This document shows, piece by piece, positions 27,522 to 64,000 of a DNA stretch of 64,000 bases (its first letter is position 1; the number at the start of each line of letters is the position of its first letter). The DNA comes from Nocardioides sp. Root240 (GTDB lineage: Bacteria > Actinomycetota > Actinomycetes > Propionibacteriales > Nocardioidaceae). Location: contig NZ_LMIT01000010.1 in assembly GCF_001428825.1 (NCBI RefSeq), positions 728,886 to 792,885 of the forward strand, written 5' to 3'. The notes under the pieces are model-generated. The model saw nothing but the letters and a program-made list of their open reading frames with translations. It was not told the origin of the DNA and searched no databases. Both the position numbers and the translations under genes were made by a program.

Positions 27522-28316
27522 TCAGCGGTTCTGCCAGGCGGGCTCACGCTTCTCGACGAAAGCGCGACGACCTTCAACCGCGTCTTCGGTCTGAAGGATT
27601 CCGAGCTGCTCTTTCTTGGTGACGCGCCAGAAGTTGTCCTCGACATCGGTGCCGTCACCGACGCCGTACGCGATCCTCTTGATCGCCTGGACCGAGAGCG
27701 GAGCGTTCTTGTTGATCGACGCGGCCAGCTCGAGTGCCGCCTCCAGCGTACTGCGACCATCCCGAACCACCTCGTTGATGAGGCCTAGGCGCAGTGCCTC
27801 GTCGGCATCGATGGAATCGCCCGTCCACAGCAGCTTGAGGGCAACCTTGGGCGGAAGCTCCTGCAGGAGACGGAAGCATCCGCCACCAGCAGCCAGGGTG
27901 CCGATCTTCACCTCGGGGAGGCCGAACACCGCCTTCTCATCGGCAACCACGAGGTCGGTGGCGAGCACGAGCTCCATGCCACCACCGAGCGCGAGTCCGT
28001 TGACGGCCGCGATGACGGGCTTGCTGATGAAGTGCCGTACGAAGCCGCCCCACCCCCACGCCTGGTACCGCTCGGGAATCTCGGGCCGACCAGCCAGCGA
28101 TTCCTTGATGTCGGCACCGGCACAGAAGGCTCGGCCCGCACCGGTGATGACGACGGAGCGGATGTCGTCGTCGGTCTGGGCCTCCTCGAGGGCGTCGGCG
28201 ATGGCCAGGCTCATCGGCGTCGTCACGGCGTTCAGGGACGCAGGGCGGTTCAGGGTGATGACGAGCGTATGACCGGAGCGCTCGACCTTGAGGTCGTTCT
28301 CCACGGGGTCGGACAA
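27522..28316 (-). CDS. Enoyl-CoA hydratase/isomerase (crotonase family)
   Basis: The 264-residue crotonase has the oxyanion-hole segments GAGRAFCAGADIKE and ALGGGMELVLATDLVV, with LEEAQTDDDIRSVVITG before them, and the C-terminal FVEKREPAW. The Glu in KIGTLAAGGGCFRL region is less clear, so isomerase versus hydratase action is open. The start is probably TTG 28316, five bases after GGAGAA; a longer frame to 28367 has no homology. It sits in the acyl-CoA operon between the thiolase-like gene and the carboxylase remnant. It would hydrate an enoyl-CoA formed by the acyl-CoA dehydrogenase. Confidence 0.85.
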   Translation of the reverse strand: MSDPVENDLKVERSGHTLVITLNRPASLNAVTTPMSLAIADALEEAQTDDDIRSVVITGAGRAFCAGADIKESLAGRPEIPERYQAWGWGGFVRHFISKPVIAAVNGLALGGGMELVLATDLVVADEKAVFGLPEVKIGTLAAGGGCFRLLQELPPKVALKLLWTGDSIDADEALRLGLINEVVRDGRSTLEAALELAASINKNAPLSVQAIKRIAYGVGDGTDVEDNFWRVTKKEQLGILQTEDAVEGRRAFVEKREPAWQNR

Positions 28317-47423: not shown

Positions 47424-48293
47424 ATGAGCGACCTGGGTACGACGCTGCGCACGTGGCGTGACCGCATGTCTCCCGCCGCGGCCGGTCTCCCGTCCAGACG
47501 AGCACGCCGTGCAGCCGGCCTGCGACGCGAGGAGCTCGCCGAGCTCGCGGGCGTGTCGGTCGACTATGTCGTGAGGCTGGAACAGGGACGCGCCACGACC
47601 CCGTCGGTGCAGGTGGCCTCGGCGCTGGCCAGGGCCCTGCACCTGAGCGACGAGGAGCGCGACCACCTGTACCGGCTCGCTGGCCTGGCACCGCCGGGCG
47701 CCGAACAGATTTCCCGCCACATCCAGCCGGGCATGCAGCGAGTGCTTCTCCGCCTCGGCGACACAGCGACCGCCGTCTTCGCTGCGGACTGGCAGATGCT
47801 GTGGTGGAACCGAGGATGGGCCGCACTCCTGGGCGACCCCTCGGCGACTCCGCACGCGCTGCGCAACTTCGCGCGTGACACCTTCCCGGCCGAGACCCTC
47901 GGCCAGGGACCCCAGCTCGCCCATTGGCCGGTCACGGCCTTCGACGGCGGGGCCTCCGACGCGGCCGTCGTCTCCGACCTGCGCCGAGCCAGCGGCCGCT
48001 ACCCTCGAGACCGGCAGCTGGCAGCCCTGATTCGCAGCTTGCGGACAACCAACAAGCGCTTCGCTGATCTCTGGGCCGCCGGCGAGGTGAGCCCGCATCG
48101 CGAGGGCCGCAAGGTCGTCGAGCACCCAGCCGTCGGTCCCGTCACGGTTGACTGCGACGTGCTCATCGACGCTGACACGGACCTGAAGATCGTGGCGATG
48201 ACAGCAGCGCCCGACACCGAGGACGAGTCGAAGTTCCGCCTCGCCCTGCTGTCCGGCGTCCACGCCCCTGCGCGGAAGACGAGCGCGCACTGA
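47424..48293 (+). CDS. XRE-family helix-turn-helix regulator with MmyB-like ligand domain
   Basis: The 289-residue protein has an N-terminal XRE helix-turn-helix (RREELAELAGVSVDYVVRLE and ATTPSVQVASALARAL), followed by an MmyB-like domain (VFAADWQMLWWNRGWAALLG, then the WAAGEVSPHREGRKVVEHPA segment), common in Actinobacteria. The adjacent divergent SDR gene at 46623-47321 is its usual partner. MmyB-type regulators mostly repress the neighbouring oxidoreductase, perhaps sensing a fatty-acid-like ligand. The gap of 102 bases must hold both promoters. ATG 47424 is the family start. Confidence 0.88.
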   Translation: MSDLGTTLRTWRDRMSPAAAGLPSRRARRAAGLRREELAELAGVSVDYVVRLEQGRATTPSVQVASALARALHLSDEERDHLYRLAGLAPPGAEQISRHIQPGMQRVLLRLGDTATAVFAADWQMLWWNRGWAALLGDPSATPHALRNFARDTFPAETLGQGPQLAHWPVTAFDGGASDAAVVSDLRRASGRYPRDRQLAALIRSLRTTNKRFADLWAAGEVSPHREGRKVVEHPAVGPVTVDCDVLIDADTDLKIVAMTAAPDTEDESKFRLALLSGVHAPARKTSAH

Positions 48294-48385
48294 CGTCGCG
48301 GTGACGGGTCGACCACCCGACGAGCACATACGCAGGTGGAAGTCAGAGACCTGCTCGCGAACGCATTCGCCATCGAAGGAAGACC

Positions 48386-61655: not shown

Positions 61656-62521
61656 GTGCCCATCCCACCAGATCCGCCGGCGGGGAACCAGCGGCCGATC
61701 TCGACGGCGGCACCGTCGTCGTCGACGGAGTCGGTCACGGCGTCGGCCGCGGCCTTGACCTCGTCGACGGCCTGGCCCATGGCCACGCCGCGTCCGGACC
61801 ACTGCAGCATCTCGATGTCGTTGCGCCCGTCGCCGATCGAGAGCACGTCCGCCCGGTCGACGCCGAGCTGCTGCGCGACGTACTCGAGACCGGAGGCCTT
61901 GGAGACGCCGACGGGGGCCAGGTCGAGCCAGGCGGTCCAGCCGACGACGTAGTCGGTGCCGTGGAGGCCGAGGTTGCCCGCGAGCTTCACGAAGTCCTCG
62001 GCGGTGGCCTTCGGGTCGCGGATGATCACGCGGCTGACCGGGCGGGCGACCATGTCCTCGACCGCGGCGACGATGGACTCGCCGCCGAGCTCGCCGTCCG
62101 GGAAGGGCGCGGAGACGCGGTAGCCGATGCCGCGCTCCTCCACGGCGACGATCGCCTCGGGGTGCTGGGCCAGGACGGCCGCGACGGCCGGGGCGGCGTC
62201 GAAGGTGACCTCGTGGACGACCTCGGCGGGCGGGTACCGCAGCACGACCGCGCCGTTGGCCGCCACGATCCAGAGCCGCTCGCCGTGGCCGTGGAGGTCG
62301 AGCATGTCGGCGACGGCGGTCATGTTGTGCGGTGCGCGGCCCGACGACAGGACGACGTGGGCGCCACTGTCGAGGACCCGCTGGACGGCGTCGTGGACGG
62401 CCGGCGTGACCTCCTCGTGGCTCATGCCGAGCCCGGCCACCCACCGGAGCAGGGTGCCGTCGATGTCGAGGGCGACGAGGCGCGGCCGCCAGCCGGGCTC
62501 CCCCGGCGCCGGCGTGGTCAC
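61652..62521 (-). CDS. HAD-superfamily phosphatase, Cof/type IIB
   Basis: The 289-residue protein has all four HAD motifs: [13 protein letters not shown] (motif I, catalytic Asp), [11 protein letters not shown] (II), [14 protein letters not shown] with Lys (III) and [14 protein letters not shown] (IV). The cap between motifs II and III fits Cof-type phosphatases, which act on sugar phosphates, pyridoxal phosphate or flavin nucleotides. It starts at GTG 62521, overlapping the serS stop by four bases, and is translated with it. It is a usual neighbour of serS in this group. Confidence 0.9.
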
Positions 62522-63798
62522 TGCGACACCGGGGTCAGGACCTCGAGCCCACCCATGAACGGCTGCAACGCCTTCGGGACCCGGACCGACCCGTCGGCCT
62601 GCTGGTGCGTCTCGAGCACGGCGACGATCGCTCGGGTGATCGCGGTGAGCGTGCCGTTGAGCGTTGCGACCGGACCCGTCTTCTCGCCGAACCGGCCCCG
62701 GGTGTCGAGGCGGCGGGTCTGGAAGTCGGTGCAGTTCGACGTCGAGGTGAGCTCGCGGTACTTGCCCTGGGTGGGGATCCACGCCTCGCAGTCGAACTTG
62801 CGGATCGCGCTCGAGCCCAGGTCGCCGGCCGCGATGTCGACGACGCGGTAGGCGAGCTCGAGCTTGTCGAGGAACTCCCGCTCCCAGGCCAGCAGGCGCT
62901 CGTGCTCGGCGGCGGCGTCCTCGAGGGTGGTGTAGACGAACATCTCGACCTTGTCGAACCAGTGGACCCGGATGATCCCCTTGGTGTCCTTGCCGTGCGA
63001 GCCTGCCTCCTTGCGGAAGCACGGGCTGAACGACGCGTAGCGCCGCGGCAACGAGGCGCCGTCGAGGATCTCCTTCGAGTGGTAGGCCGCCATCGGCACC
63101 TCGGACGTCCCGACGAGGTAGAGGTCCTCGCCCTCGATCCGGTAGATGTCCTCGCCGCCGCCCTGGTCGAGGTAGCCGGTGCCCTCCATCGCCTCGGTGC
63201 GCACGAGCGACGGCGCGATCACCTGCGTGAACCCGGCGTTGCGGGCCTGCTCCATCGCGAGGTTGACCAGCGCCAGCTCCAGCTGCGCGCCGACGCCGGT
63301 GAGGAAGTAGAAGCGGCTGCCGCTGACCTTGGCACCGCGCTCGAGGTCGATCGCGCCGAGCATCCGGCCGAGCTCGATGTGGTCGCGGGGCTCGAAGCCC
63401 TCCGCGGCGAAGTCGCGCGGCGTACCGATCTCCTCGAGGACCACGAAGTCGTCCTCGCCGCCGGTCGGGGTCTGCTCGGCCACCACGTTGGGGATCGCCT
63501 TGAGCGCGCTGGTCCAGGCCTCGTCGGCCGCGGTCTGCGCCGCCTCGAGCTCCTTGACCTGCGCGGCGAGCTGCTTGACCTCCTCGAGGAGGGCCTGCTT
63601 CTCCTCGCCCTTGGCCTGGGCGACCTGCTTGCCGAACGCCTTCTGCGCGGCGCGCTTCTCCTCGAAGTCCGCGATGGCCGTACGACGTGCGGCGTCCGCC
63701 TCGAGCGCGCGGTCGACCACGTCGGGAGACGCCCCGCGCTTGGCCTGCGAGGCGCGGACGCGGTCGGGCTCGTCACGGAGGATGCGCGGGTCGATCAT
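62518..63798 (-). CDS. serS: Seryl-tRNA synthetase
   Basis: The 426-residue enzyme charges tRNA-Ser. It starts [20 protein letters not shown], with the coiled-coil tRNA-binding arm at about residues 30-110 ([20 protein letters not shown]), and has the class II motifs: [16 protein letters not shown] (motif 1-2 region), [19 protein letters not shown] (motif 2) and [20 protein letters not shown] (motif 3). Two tRNA-Ser genes lie about 7-8 kb away at 55470-55560 and 56201-56285. It starts at ATG 63798. The gene order fits a chromosome backbone. Confidence 0.96.
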
Positions 63799-63856: not shown

Positions 63857-63952
63857 TGCAGGAATCCCCGCTCCGGCGGGGAAACTGACGGTTAGTGGCC
63901 GTTGCAACGGCCACTAAGCGCAGGAATACCCGCCGGAGCGGGGATTCCTGCA
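63857..63952. repeat. Nested coaxial palindrome between serS and the next gene
   Basis: A 24-bp arm at 63857-63880 and its exact reverse complement at 63929-63952 enclose an exact 26-bp palindrome at 63892-63917 (TTAGTGGCCGTTG and its complement). Both are centred on the same point, 63904.5. The 11 bases on each side between the arms do not pair. Each outer arm also folds on itself around GCGGGG-type stems. There is no T-run. It could be a bidirectional terminator, a REP-like element, a small mobile palindrome or a cruciform site. Confidence 0.85.
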
Positions 63953-63956
63953 CCGG

Positions 63957-64000
63957 TCAGAACAGCGCGATCCTCTCCGGGGCGGGGAAGAGCGCGTCCA
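63957..64000 (-). CDS. C-terminal end of a minus-strand protein (possibly prephenate dehydratase)
   Basis: The last 44 bases, read leftwards, encode DALFPAPERIALF and a stop at 63957. Only 13-14 residues are visible. In related genomes pheA lies beside serS, so prephenate dehydratase is a guess from gene order, not from sequence. Confidence 0.3.
   Translation of the reverse strand, partial: DALFPAPERIALF

Follow-up and report, generated by a model that had tools for sequence, protein, structure and literature searches.

Palindromic repeats are widespread in bacteria. The closest described systems combine such repeats with a dedicated gene: REP and REPIN sequences are described as short dispersed palindromes, single or in inverted pairs and mostly located between tandem or convergent genes, and the RAYT gene as a single-copy, vertically inherited chromosomal gene that is dedicated to these repeats and flanked by them (PMC3733652, PMC8049555). 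The enzyme that these two accounts report as dedicated to such repeats is the RAYT transposase, and the tag of these REPs is defined as an unpaired GTAG at the hairpin base (PMC3733652). The same 2013 survey of GTAG and CGTC repeats describes the CGTC REPs, found mainly in alpha-proteobacteria, as having stems of 8-9 bp and an unpaired CGTC tag; it associates no transposase gene with them and leaves that one superfamily without an enzyme (PMC3733652). Here we compare with these systems a palindrome from a 64,000-nucleotide stretch of Nocardioides sp. Root240 (the window), which is probably a non-autonomous copy of a two-part element consisting of a gene for an AbiEi-Vsr/EDxHD protein, as predicted by modelling, and dispersed palindromes.

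The palindrome occupies positions 63857-63952 of the window and, judged by its sequence, its folds and its copies in the genome, is a 96-bp, unstranded L-type element of a repeat family designated family A, with two outer hairpin arms and one core palindrome. The outer arms, 24 nt each (63857-63880 and 63929-63952), are reverse complements without a mismatch, the 26-bp inner palindrome (63892-63917) is exact as well and shares with them the centre 63904.5, and the 11-nt spacers on each side of the core are partly paired in the predicted folds; the nested palindrome with coaxial exact arms claimed by the first-pass annotation was thereby verified in its coordinates, exactness and common centre. 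Comparison with other copies places the left outer (R) hairpin arm at 63857-63881, with its inner half partly decayed and CCCCGC-tccg-GCGGGG kept. The core, 63892-63917, comprises arms b and c′, as assigned from the sequence and from core pairs that covary across 67 distinct copies, and its centre GTTGCAAC is the commonest among copies, some of which carry other centres. The right outer (R) hairpin, 63920-63952, assigned from sequence and covariation, reads GCAGGAATACCCGC-CGGA-GCGGGGATTCCTGC with a terminal A.

Structure prediction, suggested along with the original description, gave folds far stronger than those of shuffled sequences: the RNA fold of 121 nt reached -89.1 kcal/mol on the plus strand (z -12.3) and -84.2 kcal/mol on the minus strand (z -10.0), the DNA fold of the 96 nt had a z-score of -15.1, and in all three cases none of 200 shuffles was as good. 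The 26-mer gave a mean of 0.00 matches in shuffled sequence, even at 3 mismatches. A chance palindrome, the fallback offered in case no copy existed elsewhere, is ruled out by these fold z-scores and shuffle matches and by the further copies that the genome does contain. Rfam candidates comprised sub-threshold matches only, the best being microRNA families, and were taken as hairpin artefacts. Both neighbouring genes lie outside the system and on the minus strand. The seryl-tRNA synthetase gene serS (62518-63798) starts 58 bp from the element, and an aldo/keto-reductase-like gene (L068:12843-13937, a name from sequence reading with no database match) enters the window with its 3′ end at 63957-64000 and runs past the window edge, its stop codon (63957-63959) standing 4 bp from the element. 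The element therefore precedes serS, and the first annotation of a junction downstream of that gene is wrong.

Searching the Root240 genome (G000, 5.13 Mb, 16 contigs) with the palindrome yielded 56 matches, strong and weak, at E<=10. A covariance model, R1, was built from 16 copies of a second layout, the S-type; its E-values are rough, and at E<1e-7 it located family A at 27 places in the genome, which refutes the claim that the sequence is otherwise unique. Two weak reverse-strand matches to the model elsewhere in the window (48250-48354, E 0.048; 27848-27915, E 0.087) are probably due to chance. In the L-type layout, an R hairpin stands on either side of a single core palindrome (the window copy, L002, L005, L008 and L009). 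The S-type runs a - t1 - b - c′ - t′ - R, with a = GGTTGnTGACG, t1 = TTCCTGC, core = GGTTGnTGACGGTTGCAACCGTCAnCAACC and an R hairpin of the form GCAGGAATCCCCGC-nnnn-GCGGGGATTCCTGC. Read from the sequence, box a repeats the core arm a third time, and t′ takes part in both the extended core stem and the R hairpin, so that only one of the two foldings can form at a time. Covariation was scored on 69 model matches from 55 chosen loci, 67 of them distinct and one on the reverse strand; 25 of the 27 pairs had changed on both sides, with a score of 0.443 versus 0.147 in shuffled and at most 0.094 in slid controls, on an alignment fitted to the model and hence biased towards the model structure. Two further tests concerned pairs outside the model, namely the alternative t1-t′ helix (0.378; slid controls <=0.140) and the pairing of box a with c′ (0.334; slid controls <=0.130), and both scores exceed their controls, indicating that the three arm copies change together.

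The sole pair of family A elements less than 3 kb apart in Root240, C2:405889-405974 on the minus strand and C2:407027-407112 on the plus strand, encloses a gene (C2:406052-407011) on another contig than the window, and close element pairs in two other genomes (G002 and G033) enclose the same kind of gene. Relatives of this gene are present in 102 of 118 genus genomes, at 1-6 matches per genome having any. When 32 gene loci of the genus were scanned with R1, 24 carried elements on both sides with R pointing outwards and 2 more did so partly. Among 80 named loci with relatives of the gene, in which some genomes of the 32-locus scan recur, 44 had family A at both flanks, 14 at a single flank and 22 at neither (E<=0.05, with partial hairpin matches allowed, opposite-strand palindrome echoes dropped and one L146 row narrowly outside the distance rule); the 22 loci without an R1 element at the expected place count against the two-part reading. 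Elsewhere in these 466 kb of named loci, family A occurred at 6 places, and two loci (L131, L185) had only a match in the wrong orientation. A model-free score was obtained by aligning the upstream flank to the reverse complement of the downstream flank. Of 79 loci, a further one with a short flank being excluded, 75 scored higher than any of 77 controls shifted outwards (median 79 versus 24). The direct-orientation score also lay above the control line in 54 of the 79, as palindromes must produce. Two loci (L130:2289-4708 and L268:283-2696) contain three family A elements in a row; the gene occupies the first interval and a different stretch the second, and only one nuclease gene per locus was found there.

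Across the genus, family A was detected in at least 73 of 118 genomes under strict filters and among at most 38 scored candidates per genome. The gene occurred without family A in 34 of the 118 at the thresholds used, which again counts against a two-part element. Conversely, five genomes carried family A with no relative of the gene at E<=1e-20 (G020, G107, G108, G065 and G035, with 16, 14, 6, 3 and 1 matches), which likewise weighs against it; these may be orphan populations or may have a more distant enzyme.

The product of the gene on contig C2 was modelled with AF2 (pLDDT 93.5, pTM 0.89). Residues from about 10 to 197 of the model resemble the AbiEi antitoxin 6y8q (Foldseek E 4.8e-5, Z 10.4, 172 residues aligned) and Rv2827c (1zel, Z 8.1), and residues 202-314 resemble the homing endonuclease I-Bth0305I (3r3p, Z 11.4, rmsd 2.4 over 97 residues) and Vsr (1cw0, Z 9.7; 1vsr, Z 8.4). 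Since the Foldseek E-value for 1cw0 is weak (0.063) and two Toxoplasma mitoribosomal proteins match the nuclease-like half nearly as well (Z 9.2-9.3), the fold alone is no proof of nuclease activity. The residues E205, D237, E248, D250 and K254 do not vary among the 31 aligned sequences. Pfam returned AbiEi_4 only, below its cut-off, no NCBIfam family was found for the protein, and PADLOC AbiEi profiles matched it with an E-value of 1.3e-10; a PADLOC restriction-enzyme match (E 0.008) was set aside. A sequence search of solved structures gave a single weak match, AbaSI (E 0.035), which was also retrieved structurally (4par, Z 6.5). The protein is thus predicted to consist of an AbiEi-antitoxin domain joined to a Vsr/I-Bth0305I-like nuclease domain.

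Each half of this predicted protein has a described counterpart. The modelled C-terminal fold resembles that of the EDxHD homing endonuclease I-Bth0305I and that of Vsr, but here it is joined to an AbiEi domain, the gene is bracketed by dispersed palindromes, and no intron or intein was seen around it. The AbiEi fold and the PADLOC profile match recall the AbiE type IV toxin-antitoxin systems, from which the protein differs by the added nuclease-like domain. No AbiEii toxin gene was seen beside the unit in Root240, where the neighbours, apparently as in G002, are RelA/SpoT-like and DUF349-like by sequence reading; with no partner gene seen there and no second gene inside the unit, a toxin-antitoxin operon was rejected. 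AbiEi is reported to bind inverted repeats (PMC3985639), and on that ground the palindrome would be a natural ligand for the AbiEi-like domain.

A paralog on contig C15 of Root240, with 38-39% identity, is flanked by a different palindrome, family B, the downstream copy of which is truncated. Family B occupies at least 40 places in the genome. The 20 copies that were read are 92-99% like the query, and 15 of them are two-ended, all with exactly 106 bp between the outer hairpin edges. Their layout is that of family A, with an R hairpin, a core palindrome, a shared t and a third arm, and no sequence similarity between the families was visible by eye in the 20 copies; two families unrelated in sequence thus have the same architecture, and the close likeness of the family B copies makes the system testable. 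Family B copies also lie at several contig ends (C4:13, C13:44, C14:45, C16:13, C4:82796 and C13:635733), where the repeat is the probable cause of the assembly breaks. The genome has one more homologue of the gene, a distant one, at G000:C14:73420-73848 (L078, L245; 26% identity).

The solo copies resemble the elements flanking the gene of their own genome. Mean identity between gene-flank elements and solo copies was 0.78 within and 0.65 between genomes, and in 4 of 5 genomes the gene-flank elements were more like their own solos, which outside Root240 were 4-6 of the best-scoring, than like those of other genomes. G076 is the exception that speaks against the pattern, its solos being no nearer to its own gene flanks than to those of others.

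Orthologous sites of four Root240 copies, including an L-type copy other than that of the window, were compared across 38 stretches. At the S-type copy C10:464997, the flanks are 88-102 bp apart in Root240 versus 14, 37 and 0 bp in G446, G437 and G106, and a compensated version of the element is kept in G034, G076, G438 and G406. The flanks of two family B copies and the L-type family A copy are 119-162 bp apart in Root240, versus 20 and 14 bp (G103, G101), 10, 1 and 19 bp (G103, G406, G469) and 4, 1 and 12 bp (G076, G446, G429), respectively. The element and some neighbouring bases are thus missing there, with approximate boundaries. In the remaining stretches the site was taken up by filler, by a decayed R hairpin, by an unrelated palindrome or by the element. 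Empty sites therefore exist and presence at a site varies between species; they could instead stem from loss, the flanks being about 77-90% alike and the gap often exceeding the element. At the C10:464997 site, G411 has another AbiEi-type gene followed by another palindrome, and G114 has an AbiEi-type gene and a palindrome beside it; a search for AbiEi-type genes there gave weak matches in G464 and G469 and none in G416. Two further palindromic sequences were noted at intergenic sites. One of the form GGTAGTCCC...CAAAAGCACC, with an inverted copy, appears at two different orthologous intergenic sites (L233 in G120, L294 in G033), and the word GCCGACCCGGC, followed by a run with AAA, is intergenic in L295 (G406) and L241:187-424 (G416) and forms long inverted arrays in L241.

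Homologues of the gene were present at E<=1e-15 in 44 of 246 genomes of a phylum sample that includes Root240. Flank similarity was above the control maximum (30) in 12 of the 29 loci read and not in the other 17, which counts against the two-part reading. The palindromes of 8 of the 12 positive loci were joined as one query and searched in their 8 genomes, a set selected for having flank palindromes and not a random sample. Each of the 8 flanking palindromes matched its own genome alone, among the matches listed (at most 40 candidates scored per genome), and on the same basis the places per genome numbered 2, 3, 5, 7, 10, 18, 20 and 21; in G174 both places were just the gene flanks. These pairs of a gene and its own palindrome in other actinobacteria point to an undescribed kind of small mobile DNA.

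We next weighed readings other than the two-part element. The unit could be an IS-like transposon, with the nuclease as transposase, two inverted structured ends, L-type copies as MITEs and S-type copies as solo ends. The inverted ends do lie at near-constant distance from the gene (medians in the named loci of 115 bp upstream of the match start and 5 bp downstream of the stop), L-type copies correspond to both outer ends minus the gene, as in the short non-autonomous derivatives of insertion sequences, and the 80 loci fall into 36 contexts, the largest with 13. The gene, however, is low-copy and often at the same place across species, so that it moves rarely, a point that also weighs against the two-part reading, and short copies (27 and at least 40 places) far exceed bracketed genes (one for each family) in Root240. 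No target-site duplication was seen above the mismatched-pair controls, the longest common word averaging 3.0 in both 15 family B and 16 family A copies versus 2.81 and 3.29 in the controls. The one gene of the unit, moreover, has a predicted AbiEi plus Vsr-like fold and not a DDE fold. An IS-like transposon is on this evidence unlikely.

In a second reading, the AbiEi-like domain represses its own gene through the palindromes, and the dispersed copies are the sites of a regulon. The AbiEi of Streptococcus agalactiae is reported to repress abiE through inverted repeats in the promoter (PMC3985639), and one element does stand upstream of the gene. This reading is at odds with the second, inverted element downstream of the gene in the 44 doubly flanked loci, with the differences between species at the same site, and with the gene context of the dispersed copies: the 22 family A and 20 family B copies were tandem in 26 cases, convergent in 16 and divergent in none (0/22 and 0/20), as raw counts without a genome-wide background from a simple codon-position caller that was checked on two genes and gave several weak calls. 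We consider operators improbable.

The tandem and convergent positions, the strong hairpins on both strands and the presence of other palindromes at the same orthologous sites in other species would also suit selected terminators or mRNA 3′-end hairpins spread by gene conversion, with the nuclease gene merely located there. That account explains neither the bracketing of the gene on two sides, nor the separate palindromes of paralogs and genera, nor the agreement of solo copies with the gene flanks of their own genome, and a consensus scan found no T-tailed terminator at the window copy; we regard it as very improbable as the origin of the family, and a bidirectional terminator is possible as a side role of the window palindrome.

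The best reading is a REP/RAYT-like system that has an unrelated nuclease as its dedicated enzyme. As in that system, the palindromes are dispersed, extragenic and, in the 42 copies examined, not between divergent genes, and a dedicated gene is flanked by the repeats, but the enzyme differs, RAYT being a Y1 HUH protein and the present one combining AbiEi and Vsr/EDxHD-type folds in the model. The core-plus-third-arm layout and the occurrence in actinobacteria are further differences, and no unpaired GTAG tag was seen by eye in the S-type consensus of the 16 Root240 copies. The Y1 tyrosine transposase (PF01797) was found in 0 of 37 genus genomes, with the control search positive in 5 of 14 known genomes. 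With the CGTC REPs, family A shares palindromic, extragenic copies in oppositely oriented pairs; no CGTC tag or 8-9 bp stem was seen in it, the model stems having 13 and 14 pairs. The REP/MITE-like mobile palindrome proposed in the first-pass annotation therefore holds as regards dispersal, empty orthologous sites and avoidance of divergent gene pairs, and does not hold as regards a RAYT-type REP or the target-site duplication of a MITE. A phage or plasmid origin of the gene was rejected, with 2 partial relatives in viral contigs and 2 weak ones in plasmids; together with the low copy number, the often unchanged location and the lack of Y1 in the 37 genomes, this scarcity resembles the way of life of a RAYT.

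We infer that the nuclease mobilises the palindromes. In the proposed two-part element, the first part would be a chromosomal gene of low copy number that encodes an AbiEi-type winged-helix/antitoxin domain ahead of a Vsr/EDxHD domain and lies between two inverted elements that turn the R hairpin outward and box a towards the gene, and the second part would be the dispersed S-type (a - t1 - b - c′ - t′ - R) and L-type (R - core - R) copies. The AbiEi-like domain would bind arms a, b and c′, the nuclease domain would cut at or near an extruded or single-stranded hairpin, and repair or end-joining would put a copy at a new place with no target duplication. In this way the resident enzyme would move and sustain a palindrome population of its own, much like a RAYT transposase with its REPINs.

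A search of the open-access literature showed, among the titles and abstracts listed, no earlier account of a nuclease-palindrome system. The chances appear even that a phylum-wide, undescribed kind of actinobacterial mobile DNA is involved. Its sole enzyme, an AbiEi-Vsr/EDxHD nuclease unaccompanied by a transposase or recombinase, would recognise a three-arm palindrome by an antitoxin-derived DNA-binding domain and spread it, every nuclease lineage would have a palindrome family of its own that diverges alongside it, and these families would compete for the same intergenic hairpin sites. If true, bacteria would have, beside RAYT, another and independently evolved solution that is based on a nuclease, a role would be suggested for a chromosomal actinobacterial protein family left unnamed by Pfam and NCBIfam, and a toxin-antitoxin DNA-binding fold would have been turned into a targeting module.
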